64,000 nucleotides of DNA. Source: Anaerolineae bacterium (GTDB lineage Bacteria > Chloroflexota > Anaerolineae > DUEN01). The translations under genes and the position numbers were made by a program. Within the stretch, counting starts at the first letter, position 1. Each line of letters opens with the position of its first letter. Below the pieces are notes generated by a model. The model saw only the letters and a program-made list of their open reading frames with translations. It ran no database searches and had not been told where the DNA came from. This document shows, piece by piece, positions 3,792 through 7,558 of this stretch. The stretch spans positions 62,001 through 126,000 of the forward strand of contig JANXBS010000008.1 of the NCBI GenBank assembly GCA_025060615.1. The letters run 5' to 3'.

Positions 3792-5579
3792 ATGACCTAC
3801 GGCTTTATCAATCCCGACCGCTGGAACCTCTCTGATCTACTAACATCACCGGAGGCAGCCGATTCGGTGATCGCTGAGCTGGAGCGGCTGACCGGCGAGA
3901 TGGAGGCGCTGCGCGATCGGCTTGCGCCAGACATGGCCGAGGAAGAGTTCCTAGCCGCCCTACGCCAGTACGAGGCGATCACCCTGGCGCTGCATCGGCT
4001 GGGCGGATACGCCTTTCTCTGGTTTTCCGAGAACACCCAAGATCAGAAAGCACTTGCCTTTTTGGGCCGCATCGAACAGCTGAGCGCCGAGATCCAGAAT
4101 CGCGTCCTGTTCTTCAGCCTCTGGTGGAAACAGTTGGACGAGGAGCCAGCCCAGCGCCTGATGCGCAACGCCGGCGATTTTCGCTACTTTTTGGAAAGCC
4201 TGCGCCGCTTCAAACCGCACACCTTGACCGAGCCAGAGGAGAAAATCATCAACCTAAAGGACGTCAACGGCATCAGCGCCGTTGTCACTCTATATGACAT
4301 GATCACCAACCGCTTCATCTTCGAGCTAGAGGTGGACGGTGAAAAGAAGCGGCTGACCCGGGAGGAGCTGTCCGTCTACTTCCGTCATCCCTCACCTGAA
4401 CTGCGCGCGGCCGCATATCGGGAACTATATCGTGTTTATGGCGACCACGGCAGCCTGCTGGGCCAGATCTATGCCTACCGGGTGCGCGACTGGGCTACCG
4501 AACACCTGCAGTTACGTAAATTCAGCTCCCCCATCGCCGTGCGTAACCTGGCTAACGATATCCCTGATGCCGCCGTAGAGATCCTCCTTGAAGTGTGCCG
4601 GGCGAACGTGGGCATCTTCCAGCGCTACTTCCGCTTGAAGGCTCGCTGGCTGGGCATGGACCGCCTGCGACGCTACGACCTTTACGCGCCCATCGCTGCT
4701 GCGGAGAAAAACTATTCATACGGCGAGGCCGTGGATCTGGTGCTGGACACATATCGGGCGTTCTCGCCTGTAATCGCCGAGCATGCCTACCGCGTGTTTG
4801 CCGACCGCCACATAGATGCCCAAGTGCGGCCGGGCAAACGAAGTGGCGCCTTCTCCTACGGCGTGCTGCCCGGTCTCACCCCTTACGTGATGCTCAATTA
4901 CACCGGCAAGGCTCGCGACGTGGCAACAATGGCACACGAACTGGGGCACGCAATCCACTCCTCCTTAGCTGGCCATCACTCCGTCCTCACGTTCCATCCC
5001 TCCCTACCCTTGGCCGAGACGGCATCTGTCTTCGGCGAGATGTTACTCACCGATCGGCTATTACAGGAGGAACAAGATGTGGCTGTGCGCCGCGAACTGC
5101 TGGTCAACGCTTTAGACGATACCTATGCCACCGTGCTGCGCCAGGCCTACTTCGCCCTCTTCGAGCGAGAAGCGCATGAGCTCGTTCAACAGGGTCGAAC
5201 CACTGACGAGCTGAGTGAACGCTATCTGGAGAACTTGCGCGATCAATTCGGGGACGCAGTAGATGTGAGCGAAGACTTTCGTTGGGAGTGGATCTCCATC
5301 CCCCACTTCTATCACACGCCGTTCTACGTTTATGCTTATAGCTTTGGCCAGCTACTGGTCTTAGCCTTGTACCAGCGTTATAAGGCTGAGGGTGAAGCGT
5401 TCAAGCCCGCCTACTTGCAGATCTTGGCTTACGGCGGATCAGAGAGCCCGCAGCGCGTGCTAAGCGAAGCGAGGGTGGACATCATGTCACCTTCGTTTTG
5501 GCAGGGAGGGTTTGACGTCATCGCCGGGATGGTTAACGAGCTGGAGACGCTAGAACAGGTCCCTCAGCCCTCCCTGTGA
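3792..5579 (+). CDS. pepF: M3 family zinc oligoendopeptidase (PepF-like)
   Basis: 595 residues, the usual length of M3B oligoendopeptidase F. The zinc motif HELGH lies at residues 382-386 and the third ligand is Glu409 in LAETASVFGE. Downstream, FYHTPFYVYAYSFGQLLVLALY is the typical M3 C-terminal helix that closes the cleft. The enzyme cleaves short peptides in the cytoplasm and takes part in peptide recycling. No signal peptide is present. The start ATG is preceded by GAGGAG at about 10 bases. It follows the glycosidase cluster by 47 bases and is followed by a long untranslated stretch, so it is probably the last gene of its transcript. Confidence 0.92.
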   Translation: MTYGFINPDRWNLSDLLTSPEAADSVIAELERLTGEMEALRDRLAPDMAEEEFLAALRQYEAITLALHRLGGYAFLWFSENTQDQKALAFLGRIEQLSAEIQNRVLFFSLWWKQLDEEPAQRLMRNAGDFRYFLESLRRFKPHTLTEPEEKIINLKDVNGISAVVTLYDMITNRFIFELEVDGEKKRLTREELSVYFRHPSPELRAAAYRELYRVYGDHGSLLGQIYAYRVRDWATEHLQLRKFSSPIAVRNLANDIPDAAVEILLEVCRANVGIFQRYFRLKARWLGMDRLRRYDLYAPIAAAEKNYSYGEAVDLVLDTYRAFSPVIAEHAYRVFADRHIDAQVRPGKRSGAFSYGVLPGLTPYVMLNYTGKARDVATMAHELGHAIHSSLAGHHSVLTFHPSLPLAETASVFGEMLLTDRLLQEEQDVAVRRELLVNALDDTYATVLRQAYFALFEREAHELVQQGRTTDELSERYLENLRDQFGDAVDVSEDFRWEWISIPHFYHTPFYVYAYSFGQLLVLALYQRYKAEGEAFKPAYLQILAYGGSESPQRVLSEARVDIMSPSFWQGGFDVIAGMVNELETLEQVPQPSL

Positions 5580-5641
5580 TCCATCCCATAGCCACTGACG
5601 GTCTTTCACGATATGACTCTTGCAGAGGCTCGTGTGCCCAA

Positions 5642-5670
5642 TTGACAACCACCTAGCGCGTTCGTATAAT
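5642..5670 (+). promoter_or_regulatory. Consensus sigma-A promoter ahead of the mgtE leader
   Basis: TTGACA at 5642-5647 and TATAAT at 5665-5670 are separated by exactly 17 bases, so both hexamers and the spacing match the vegetative consensus. Transcription should begin near 5677, more than 500 bases before the mgtE start codon. Such a perfect promoter is usually found at stable RNAs or highly transcribed leaders. Confidence 0.85.
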
Positions 5671-5676
5671 TGCCCC

Positions 5677-6208
5677 GTCAACGGCTGCCTGTGGCAGCTT
5701 AGAGGGTAAAAGCCTCCACGGAAAGGCGAACTTTCGGTCAAGCAAACTTATGTACCGAATCTTCTGTTCCCGCCTATTGTGGCTGTGAAAGGCGGGCCCG
5801 AGAGCTTTGCCGGCGTGAGATCGGACATCCAAGAGCTTCAGAGCCGGCTGAAGTCTGCAGGAAAGGCTGCCGTGGACGAGATTTCCTCGCCCGACCGTCC
5901 GGGTGACCGTACCTGGACCAAGCTCCAGCCCCGCTCCCATCAAGGGCGCGCGGCCTGGGGTCGTGACGTGATGAACAACTGCATACGTCGCTTCCCCGCC
6001 GGCTGTAGCGTGCCCTCCACCAGCTTGGCATAGCCTCGCAACTCAGCCCTCCGGGGAAGCGGTCAAGACCATCCTATAGCGAGCAGCGCCAAAGCCTGTG
6101 GTTCCTTCCGGCCTTAGGGCTCCCTATCGCCGCGAGTACGAGGCCTGGCTGCCGCTTCGCAAGGGAGCGATCTCTTCTCCAGCGCAGAGAAGTCCACCGG
6201 AGGGCTCT
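5677..6208 (+). promoter_or_regulatory. Long untranslated leader or unrecognised structured RNA upstream of mgtE
   Basis: About 530 bases between a consensus promoter and mgtE contain no convincing gene. Short perfect stems are dense: CCCGCC/GGCGGG (5769-5774 with 5791-5796), CTTCAG/CTGAAG around a six-base loop (5836-5853), GCAG/CTGC (5856-5869), CGAG/CTCG (5877-5889). A 10-bp long-range stem pairs CGCTTCCCCG (5989-5998) with CGGGGAAGCG (6052-6061). The position upstream of a magnesium channel suggests a Mg2+-responsive leader. However, the conserved core of the M-box riboswitch (GGTGAGGCTCC) is absent, and I do not see the cores of RNase P RNA, tmRNA or SRP RNA. It may be a new leader RNA or a free-standing ncRNA followed by mgtE. 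Confidence 0.5.
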
Positions 6209-7558
6209 ATGGAGCGTCTGCTGATCGAAAGCGCGCTGGATCGCGTGCGCGCGGCACTGGAAAATAACGACTTTGATCAGGCCATCCACATCATTGAGGG
6301 GCTGCGTCCACCTGATCAGGCCGAGGTATTCGCCGAGCTCGAGCCAGAAGATCAGGTCGCATTGCTTCCTCAGTTGGATCCGGCTGACTCCGCCGACATC
6401 TTGGAAGAACTCGAAGAGGAAGAGGCTGCCGAGCTGGCTAGCACGCTGCCCACCAGCACCTTGAGCCGCATTGTGGATGAGATGGAGCCTGACGAAGCAG
6501 CCGACCTGCTAGGCGATATCTCTGATGAACAAGCGGAAGCAGTCCTGGCCAGCCTGGAGGACCCAGACGAGGTCCGCCCGCTGCTAATGCACCCAGATGA
6601 CACAGCCGGTGGCTTGATGACCTCGGAGTTTCTGGCCCTGCGCCGGCGAACCACGGTAGCTGAGGCGCTGGAAGCTGTGCGCCAATGGCATCCTGAAGGA
6701 CACGTGGCCGATCAGCTCTTCGTCATTGACGCCAATCGCGTGTTGCACGGCGTCGTTACACTGCGCCAACTCATCCTGGCCGAACCCCATCAGCGAATGG
6801 TGGACATCATGAACCCTGAAGTGATCAGCGTGCCCGTCGGGACCGACCAGGAGGAATGTGCCCGCCTGATGGACCGCTATGATCTGCTGGCGCTGCCGGT
6901 GGTGGACGAGCATCATCGGCTCTTGGGCGTGATCACGGTAGACGATCTGGTGGATGTACTGCAGGAAGAGGTCACAGAGGATATCCAGCGACTGGGCGGT
7001 GCCCAGCCATTGGGCGGCCCATACCTTGAGACCAATGTAATCCGGGTAGCCCGCAGTCGGATCGGTTGGCTGCTGATTTTGTTCCTGACAGGGACACTGA
7101 CTGGCTCGGTGCTGCGGCTATTCAGCTACGAGCTAGAAGCCGTAGTCGCACTGGCGTACTTTATTCCGCTGCTGATCGGAACGGGTGGCAACGCCGGCTC
7201 TCAGACGATCAGCACGATTGTCCGTGGGCTGGCCGTAGGAGACATCGGCCTAGGCGATGGCCTTCGGGTGCTTTGGCATGAGCTGCGCGTAGGGCTGCTG
7301 CTGGGAATCGTCATGGGCACCGTCGGCTATATCCGGGCATTGACCTGGGGCATCGAGCATCCGGTAGCCATCGCGGTGGCCCTTGCTCTCTTGATGATCG
7401 TCCTATGGGCCAATATCATCGGCTCCGCCCTACCTTTGTTAGCCAGCCGGCTGCGTATAGACCCGGCAATCGTCTCAGGTCCGTTCATGAGCACCCTGGT
7501 GGATGCCACTGGGCTGCTGATCTATCTCTCCGTCGCTAAGGCCATCCTGGGCATCTGA
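6209..7558 (+). CDS. mgtE: Magnesium transporter MgtE
   Basis: Start chosen at ATG 6209 because GGAGGG lies at 6199-6204 and the 449-residue product then matches the usual MgtE length; an in-frame ATG at 6098 would add an unlikely 37 residues. Domains in order: the N-terminal acidic superhelical domain (about 1-130, with repeated Asp/Glu-rich FAELEPEDQVALLPQLDP and LEELEEEEAAELA units), tandem CBS domains (about 135-255, with HPDDTAGGLMTSEFLALRR), then five membrane helices from about 280, including the family hallmark GTGGNAGSQ in the pore region. It forms a dimeric Mg2+-gated channel of the inner membrane, closed by Mg2+ binding to the N and CBS domains. It lies alone behind a long leader that could add RNA-level control. 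Confidence 0.95.
   Translation: MERLLIESALDRVRAALENNDFDQAIHIIEGLRPPDQAEVFAELEPEDQVALLPQLDPADSADILEELEEEEAAELASTLPTSTLSRIVDEMEPDEAADLLGDISDEQAEAVLASLEDPDEVRPLLMHPDDTAGGLMTSEFLALRRRTTVAEALEAVRQWHPEGHVADQLFVIDANRVLHGVVTLRQLILAEPHQRMVDIMNPEVISVPVGTDQEECARLMDRYDLLALPVVDEHHRLLGVITVDDLVDVLQEEVTEDIQRLGGAQPLGGPYLETNVIRVARSRIGWLLILFLTGTLTGSVLRLFSYELEAVVALAYFIPLLIGTGGNAGSQTISTIVRGLAVGDIGLGDGLRVLWHELRVGLLLGIVMGTVGYIRALTWGIEHPVAIAVALALLMIVLWANIIGSALPLLASRLRIDPAIVSGPFMSTLVDATGLLIYLSVAKAILGI

Follow-up and report, generated by a model that had tools for sequence, protein, structure and literature searches.

Mg2+ sensing through the stability of a ribosome on an acidic leader peptide has been worked out in enterobacteria (PMC8092293, PMC11282234, PMC11552253). 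In Salmonella mgtQ-mgtB, acidic residues early in an upstream open reading frame (uORF) destabilize ribosomes and so raise expression of the Mg2+ transporter (PMC8092293), and the early acidic residues of MgtL act in the same way (PMC11282234, PMC11552253). A further type of leader found upstream of Mg2+ transporter genes is the M-box riboswitch (RF00380). The original report of ribosome destabilization is said to be that of Chadani in 2017.

Here we describe the region upstream of mgtE in a 64,000-nucleotide stretch of DNA from an Anaerolineae bacterium of the phylum Chloroflexota (the window). We estimate a probability of about 0.6 that this leader attenuates the translation of mgtE in cis, under the control of ribosomes that translate a uORF for a leader peptide. 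The open-access papers searched yielded no report that mgtE of Chloroflexota has a leader with a uORF, and the excerpt of PMC4833913 has no bearing on mgtE.

A conserved leader precedes mgtE

A sequence-only reading of this DNA had proposed a consensus promoter ahead of mgtE, followed by more than 500 untranslated bases. The promoter was borne out (Table 1), and its spacing of 17 recurs in all four genomes of the family (the window genome and three relatives), with TTGACA as the −35 element in three and TTGACG in one. The leader is indeed long, with a promoter-to-mgtE distance of 538 nt in the window and of 299, 270 and 390 nt in the relatives, but it is not untranslated, because it contains a conserved ORF of 53 codons. 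A DNA search found the leader in 4/4 family genomes, each time upstream of mgtE, and, when extended to 298 genomes of the class, returned these four and no others. The promoter, the uORF, both helices described below and mgtE are common to all four genomes, so that the lack of conservation in relatives considered in the same reading was not observed. The leader as a whole folds with a z-score of −1.90, and 4 of 100 shuffles fold equally well.

Table 1 Features of the mgtE leader in the window
Feature	Position	Strand	Details
Sigma-70 type promoter, TTGACA-17-TATAAT	5642–5670	+	12/12 consensus matches; layout kept in 4/4 family genomes
Extra 5′ leader stretch	5677–5858	+	Long here; promoter-to-uORF distance much shorter in the three relatives
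uORF Shine–Dalgarno-like sequence, AGGAAAGG	5859–5866	+	Read from sequence
uORF, VDEISSPDRPGDRTWTKLQPRSHQGRAAWGRDVMNNCIRRFPAGCSVPSTSLA	5872–6033	+	GTG start, 53 codons and TAG; 49–55% identity to three relatives
S1 helix, 5′ arm	5944–5955	+	Inside uORF; pairs with 6001–6004 and 6008–6015; 12 pairs, duplex −20.7 kcal/mol
Small hairpin in S1 loop (GACGT/ACGTC, ATG/CAT) with conserved AACAACTnCATACG	5965–5989	+	Read by eye
S2 helix, 5′ arm	5989–5998	+	Encodes RRFP/RRSP of the uORF; extendable to 6005; duplex −19.4 (10 bp), −30.0 extended
S1 helix, 3′ arm	6001–6015	+	Duplex calculation
Anti-Shine–Dalgarno, AGCCCTCCGG	6045–6054	+	10-bp perfect complement to 6197–6206; 2% of composition shuffles reach this
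S2 helix, 3′ arm	6052–6061	+	Exact inverted pair; extendable back to 6044 over the anti-Shine–Dalgarno
Stretch separating anti-Shine–Dalgarno from Shine–Dalgarno	6062–6196	+	About 130 nt in the window and one relative, short in the other two
mgtE Shine–Dalgarno, CCGGAGGGCT	6197–6206	+	Anti-Shine–Dalgarno partner in the proposed OFF state; complementarity
mgtE, Mg2+ channel	6209–7558	+	ATG at 6209, 449 aa; Pfam MgtE 2.7e-35, MgtE_N, CBS

The four family uORF peptides share 19 invariant columns, with the pattern M(D/E)E...P..PG...RAA.GR.V..N.IRR.P.G, and a profile search with the peptide found strong matches only in the four mgtE leaders. Substitutions at codon positions 1, 2 and 3 number 31, 30 and 52 in codons 2–22, a mild coding signal, and 90, 86 and 109 over the whole uORF. 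An internal ATG at 5971 lies in the same frame (5971–6033 in the window, MNNCIRRFP...) with a plausible Shine–Dalgarno sequence upstream, and may provide a second, shorter uORF start in the family.

Rfam 15 at the gathering threshold gave no match in the whole window and none in 20 mgtE loci of the class, and searches at E ≤ 10 in 5000–6800 gave chance-level matches only. With these scans empty, and with no Infernal hit of the kind that the sequence-only reading had named as counting against its view, we dropped the idea that the leader is a known RNA. That reading was also right that the M-box is missing: RF00380 has no match in the window or in any of the four family genomes, and is present elsewhere, in 21 of the 298 class genomes. 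RNase P RNA was ruled out as an identity for the leader because the genome's own copy sits elsewhere; it lies outside the window at G000:C14:33970–34381, and its score of 99.4 bits narrowly misses the family cut-off of 100.

Alternative pairings around the mgtE Shine–Dalgarno sequence

The 10-bp long-range pair that had been noticed earlier is exact and corresponds to helix S2 (Table 1). Its 5′ arm lies in the uORF and its 3′ arm overlaps the anti-Shine–Dalgarno (anti-SD) sequence, and a second helix, S1, brackets the S2 5′ arm, which gives the order of an H-type pseudoknot. The anti-SD can alternatively pair with the Shine–Dalgarno (SD) sequence of mgtE, with duplex energies of −21.0 to −24.4 in the window. 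Three features characteristic of the mgtQ kind of leader are present: a conserved uORF with its own SD upstream of the transporter; early acidic codons, the window uORF beginning VDE; and, as pairing potential, mutually exclusive helices of which one masks the transporter SD.

Between 5677 and 6208 there are exactly two 10-mer inverted pairs, 5989–5998/6052–6061 and 6045–6054/6197–6206. Because 98 of 500 dinucleotide shuffles hold at least one such pair and 38 hold at least two, these pairs are weak evidence by sequence alone, and it is conservation that carries weight. Counterparts of S1 are present in the three relatives, where S2 has duplex energies of −26.5 to −30.3 and anti-SD/SD of −16.7 to −18.5. 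Read by eye, an extra T in the S2 5′ arm of the window has its match in an additional A of the 3′ arm. What is conserved in the leader is the uORF, together with helices that would involve the ribosome-binding site of mgtE.

Nested equilibrium folding, which excludes pseudoknots, does not predict a switch: the window SD is paired in 4/4 modelled ribosome states, with a mean unpaired probability of 0.13 across them. The SD stays paired in the nested fold regardless of the state of the uORF, so that a switch would depend on kinetics and the pseudoknot or else have the sign of mgtQ.

Leaders of similar layout recur across the class

Orthologues of MgtE are present in 143 of the 298 class genomes, and we examined the regions upstream of 90 mgtE matches (30 loci and 60 further regions). 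Many of these leaders share one layout, comprising a promoter, a uORF such as MDEIKPEDGPPSSRKGHLSRLRPANRIV, S1 (CCTGCCAACC/GGTTGGCAGG), a CCCC strand, and an anti-SD/SD pair. The CCCC strand lies past the uORF stop and pairs with GGGG adjoining CCTCC, and CCTCCGGG/CCCGGAGG pair at the mgtE SD. The class leader thus combines a short uORF, acidic at its start, with S1 and S2 as an H-type pseudoknot and an anti-SD/SD hairpin that competes with S2. Including the window, the uORFs range from 20 to 53 codons.

A covariance model, R1, was built from 17 class leaders (alignment A2). Of 91 sources, 27 have a match to it below E 0.01, among them the 17 of its own seed. A search of the 298 class genomes placed R1 at E ≤ 0.05 in 45 of them. 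Among the 51 places listed, 28 precede mgtE (in 27 genomes; 27 assigned by MgtE coordinates and one, G253, by eye from the translation), and 17 of these belonged to the seed; two precede corA, one precedes an ABC permease gene, one has no clear gene and one overlaps another match. The remaining 18, all below 32 bits, were dropped as chance after their sequences and downstream ORFs were viewed. In 390 genomes of the phylum, three match, one of them outside the class and before an mgtE-like gene.

The two corA leaders (L167:239–342 and L175, from genomes G018 and G081 of one genus) carry a uORF that reads VDDESASRS...RR; corA was identified with Pfam in L167, and in L175 from its resemblance to L167. 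In both, a considerable distance separates the SD-like hairpin from the start of corA, and something else may lie between leader and gene. At L162:274–376, a full leader copy, whose uORF reads MDDNQLEDGRPSTRKEYLTRLCPANRIS, is followed by an ABC-transporter permease gene. Another copy, on the minus strand at L163:2171–2271, has neither a recognizable uORF start nor a downstream gene and is perhaps decaying. The mgtE genes of six loci (L046, L069, L083, L109, L118 and L120) are unmatched by R1 at E 0.01 and have other RNA sequence upstream; their uORFs have acidic starts, such as MSAEPEDQPDSR, MEDGSQASADP and MMDAEGIQPKRRH.

To assess acidity, we chose uORFs by SD strength and start codon, blind to composition. 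At least two acidic residues fall in positions 2–6 in 28 of 84 uORFs (88 loci examined), compared with 2/79 on the reverse strand, 1/63 further upstream, and a mean of 2.6 and maximum of 5 in 20 shuffles. An earlier curated uORF list, in which the search pattern itself forced an acidic start, is not counted as evidence of acidity. Among the 35 elements (of 36) with a called uORF, 26 have an acidic residue at position 3 and 17 have one at position 2.

Pairing was assessed on the 35-row alignment A3, from which two antisense rows were removed before the complementarity test; L163 was removed as well before uORF residues were counted. In permutations of duplex energy (n = 33, uncorrected for relatedness), each leader's own partner gives a stronger duplex than permuted ones for S1 (z −5.5, 0/2000) and S2 (z −5.9, 0/2000), and anti-SD/SD gives z −3.2 (2/2000). 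In the 17-row alignment, S1 and anti-SD/SD together show covariation (0.233 versus 0.183; 0/500 shuffles), and 85.9% of their cells pair, with eight pairs changed on both sides (1/500 shuffles as high). Pair counts for S2 alone on A2 are not above those of shuffles. In the 3 of 17 rows in which A replaces G in the anti-SD, U replaces C in both the S2 partner and the SD partner.

The window leader and those of its three relatives have no match to R1, which for the window was searched up to E 10. They nevertheless have the class order of parts (acidic uORF, S1 5′, S2 5′, S1 3′, anti-SD, SD), as judged by reading and pairing of the four leaders, and the window and class leaders both have a conserved AAC-NNN-ATA followed by the CCCC strand. 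At the ends of their uORFs, two class loci (L038 and L045) resemble intermediates (DNFITWPLAGRP and PNFIIIMPSGR versus NNFIRRSPKG). Profiles of the family and class uORFs align start to start, as a weak match (E 0.0037, probability 9%). The shared layout suggests that the window leader may be a diverged member of the class element, a membership that R1 does not support.

Proposed mechanism and alternatives

The architecture of uORF, S1/S2 and anti-SD/SD is well supported as a prediction; Mg2+ as the cue and the sign of the switch we infer. Mg2+ is suggested by the effect of early acidic residues in mgtQ and MgtL, which raise transporter expression, and by the presence of two transporter families downstream. 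Of 28 class leaders read, 23 have their uORF stop 0–4 nt ahead of the S2 5′ strand and five have it beyond that strand, which a finishing ribosome would therefore cover or have passed. A ribosome reading the uORF to its stop would accordingly unwind S1 and keep S2 from forming; the anti-SD would then pair with the mgtE SD and mgtE would be OFF. Low Mg2+ would favour ribosome fall-off or stalling at the acidic or proline-rich start of the uORF, as in the enteric cases, and early loss of the ribosome would allow S1 and S2 to fold and to capture the anti-SD, turning mgtE ON. The ribosome itself would thus be the Mg2+ sensor.

The S1/S2 pseudoknot might instead be an aptamer for Mg2+ or another ligand, that is, a riboswitch that the uORF merely tunes or couples. 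The combination of an H-type pseudoknot order and a neighbouring SD is known from the SAM-II and preQ1-II riboswitches. Loop letters (A19, T26 and A27 of A2; GAATA) are also conserved despite reading frames that differ between families, and therefore the RNA, not only its codons, is constrained. We consider an aptamer unlikely, given that the conserved loop is short, that the acidic uORF start would go unexplained, and that the Rfam searches of the window and 20 class loci found no known relative; moreover, an S2 helix stabilized by Mg2+ would turn an importer ON at high Mg2+, which is the wrong sign.

A ribosome-operated switch could also have the sign of mgtQ, in which case a ribosome slowed near the end of the uORF would block S1 and favour S2 (ON), and an untranslated uORF would leave mgtE OFF. 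This is how the Salmonella leader behaves, being OFF when untranslated and ON with a ribosome on stem 1 (PMC8092293), and nested folding pairs the SD of the window in the untranslated state. The acidic residues here lie well upstream of S1, however, and a ribosome that has reached the stop sits on the S2 5′ strand as well or is already past it, which makes this sign improbable in our view. Far less probable still is an independent structured ncRNA, or a transcriptional or Rho-dependent attenuator, that merely precedes mgtE. Such an RNA would fit the consensus promoter, and enteric mgtL does work through Rho (PMC11282234), but the conserved core encodes a peptide and would make contact with the SD of mgtE, and the sole terminator-like site in the leader is weak (two found in the region against a shuffle mean of 1.2).

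The sequence-only reading had left a choice between an abundant ncRNA that happens to precede mgtE and a different Mg2+-sensing leader. That reading overlooked both the uORF and the anti-SD. The ncRNA is not supported, the conserved part being made up of a uORF and of helices that would involve the mgtE ribosome-binding site. The sensing leader, with Mg2+ as a putative cue, fits in so far as the leader is conserved with mgtE in 4/4 family genomes and a similar layout occurs class-wide and before corA in two genomes. At somewhat less than even odds, we further suggest that Anaerolineae-type Chloroflexota possess a class-wide, unnamed element that evolved independently of enteric mgtL and mgtQ, in which the ribosome, destabilized by an acidic peptide at low Mg2+, would be the sensor and a pseudoknotted anti-anti-Shine–Dalgarno would convert this into translation of mgtE.

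Relation to known Mg2+ leaders

In a class distant from the enterobacteria, acidic uORFs are found repeatedly upstream of mgtE, and in two genomes upstream of corA, in leaders whose RNA architecture is different. If the proposal is true, Mg2+ sensing by ribosome stability reaches well beyond its enterobacterial examples and had more than one origin. The proposed element, which is compact, makes direct predictions about two acidic codons and one 10-bp helix.

Among described leaders, the M-box shares with this one its position upstream of Mg2+ transporter genes, and differs in that the window and family have no match to its model. The pe20 leader of Mycobacterium tuberculosis is similarly an Mg2+ leader with a conserved uORF and a translational platform, but contains an M-box aptamer, which the Chloroflexota leader does not have (PMC12810186). 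The mgtE motif SRC-65-1 is also a candidate cis-regulator before mgtE that includes the SD; as described in the excerpt of PMC11109978, the basis of this comparison, it is a riboswitch candidate reported only in Thioalkalivibrio, with no mention of a uORF.

Leader peptides precede Mg2+ transporter genes in E. coli and Salmonella as well, namely mgtL before mgtA and corL before corA. The mgtL peptide is acidic and proline-rich, and translation of the mgtL and corL uORFs opposes transporter expression; these leaders act through Rho-dependent transcription termination, whereas the apparent target here is the mgtE SD (PMC11282234, PMC11552253). Salmonella mgtQ-mgtB likewise combines an Mg2+ transporter, a short uORF with early Asp or Glu, control at the level of translation, and mutually exclusive stems of which one hides the transporter ribosome-binding site (PMC8092293). 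Its uORF has 8 residues and lies inside an operon, with the acidic residues on stem 1 itself (PMC8092293), whereas the Chloroflexota uORFs have 20–53 codons at the 5′ end, and their leaders differ in pseudoknot order, sequence, transporter family and phylum. The leader would work like mgtQ and mgtL and, as far as tested, is not related to them by descent.
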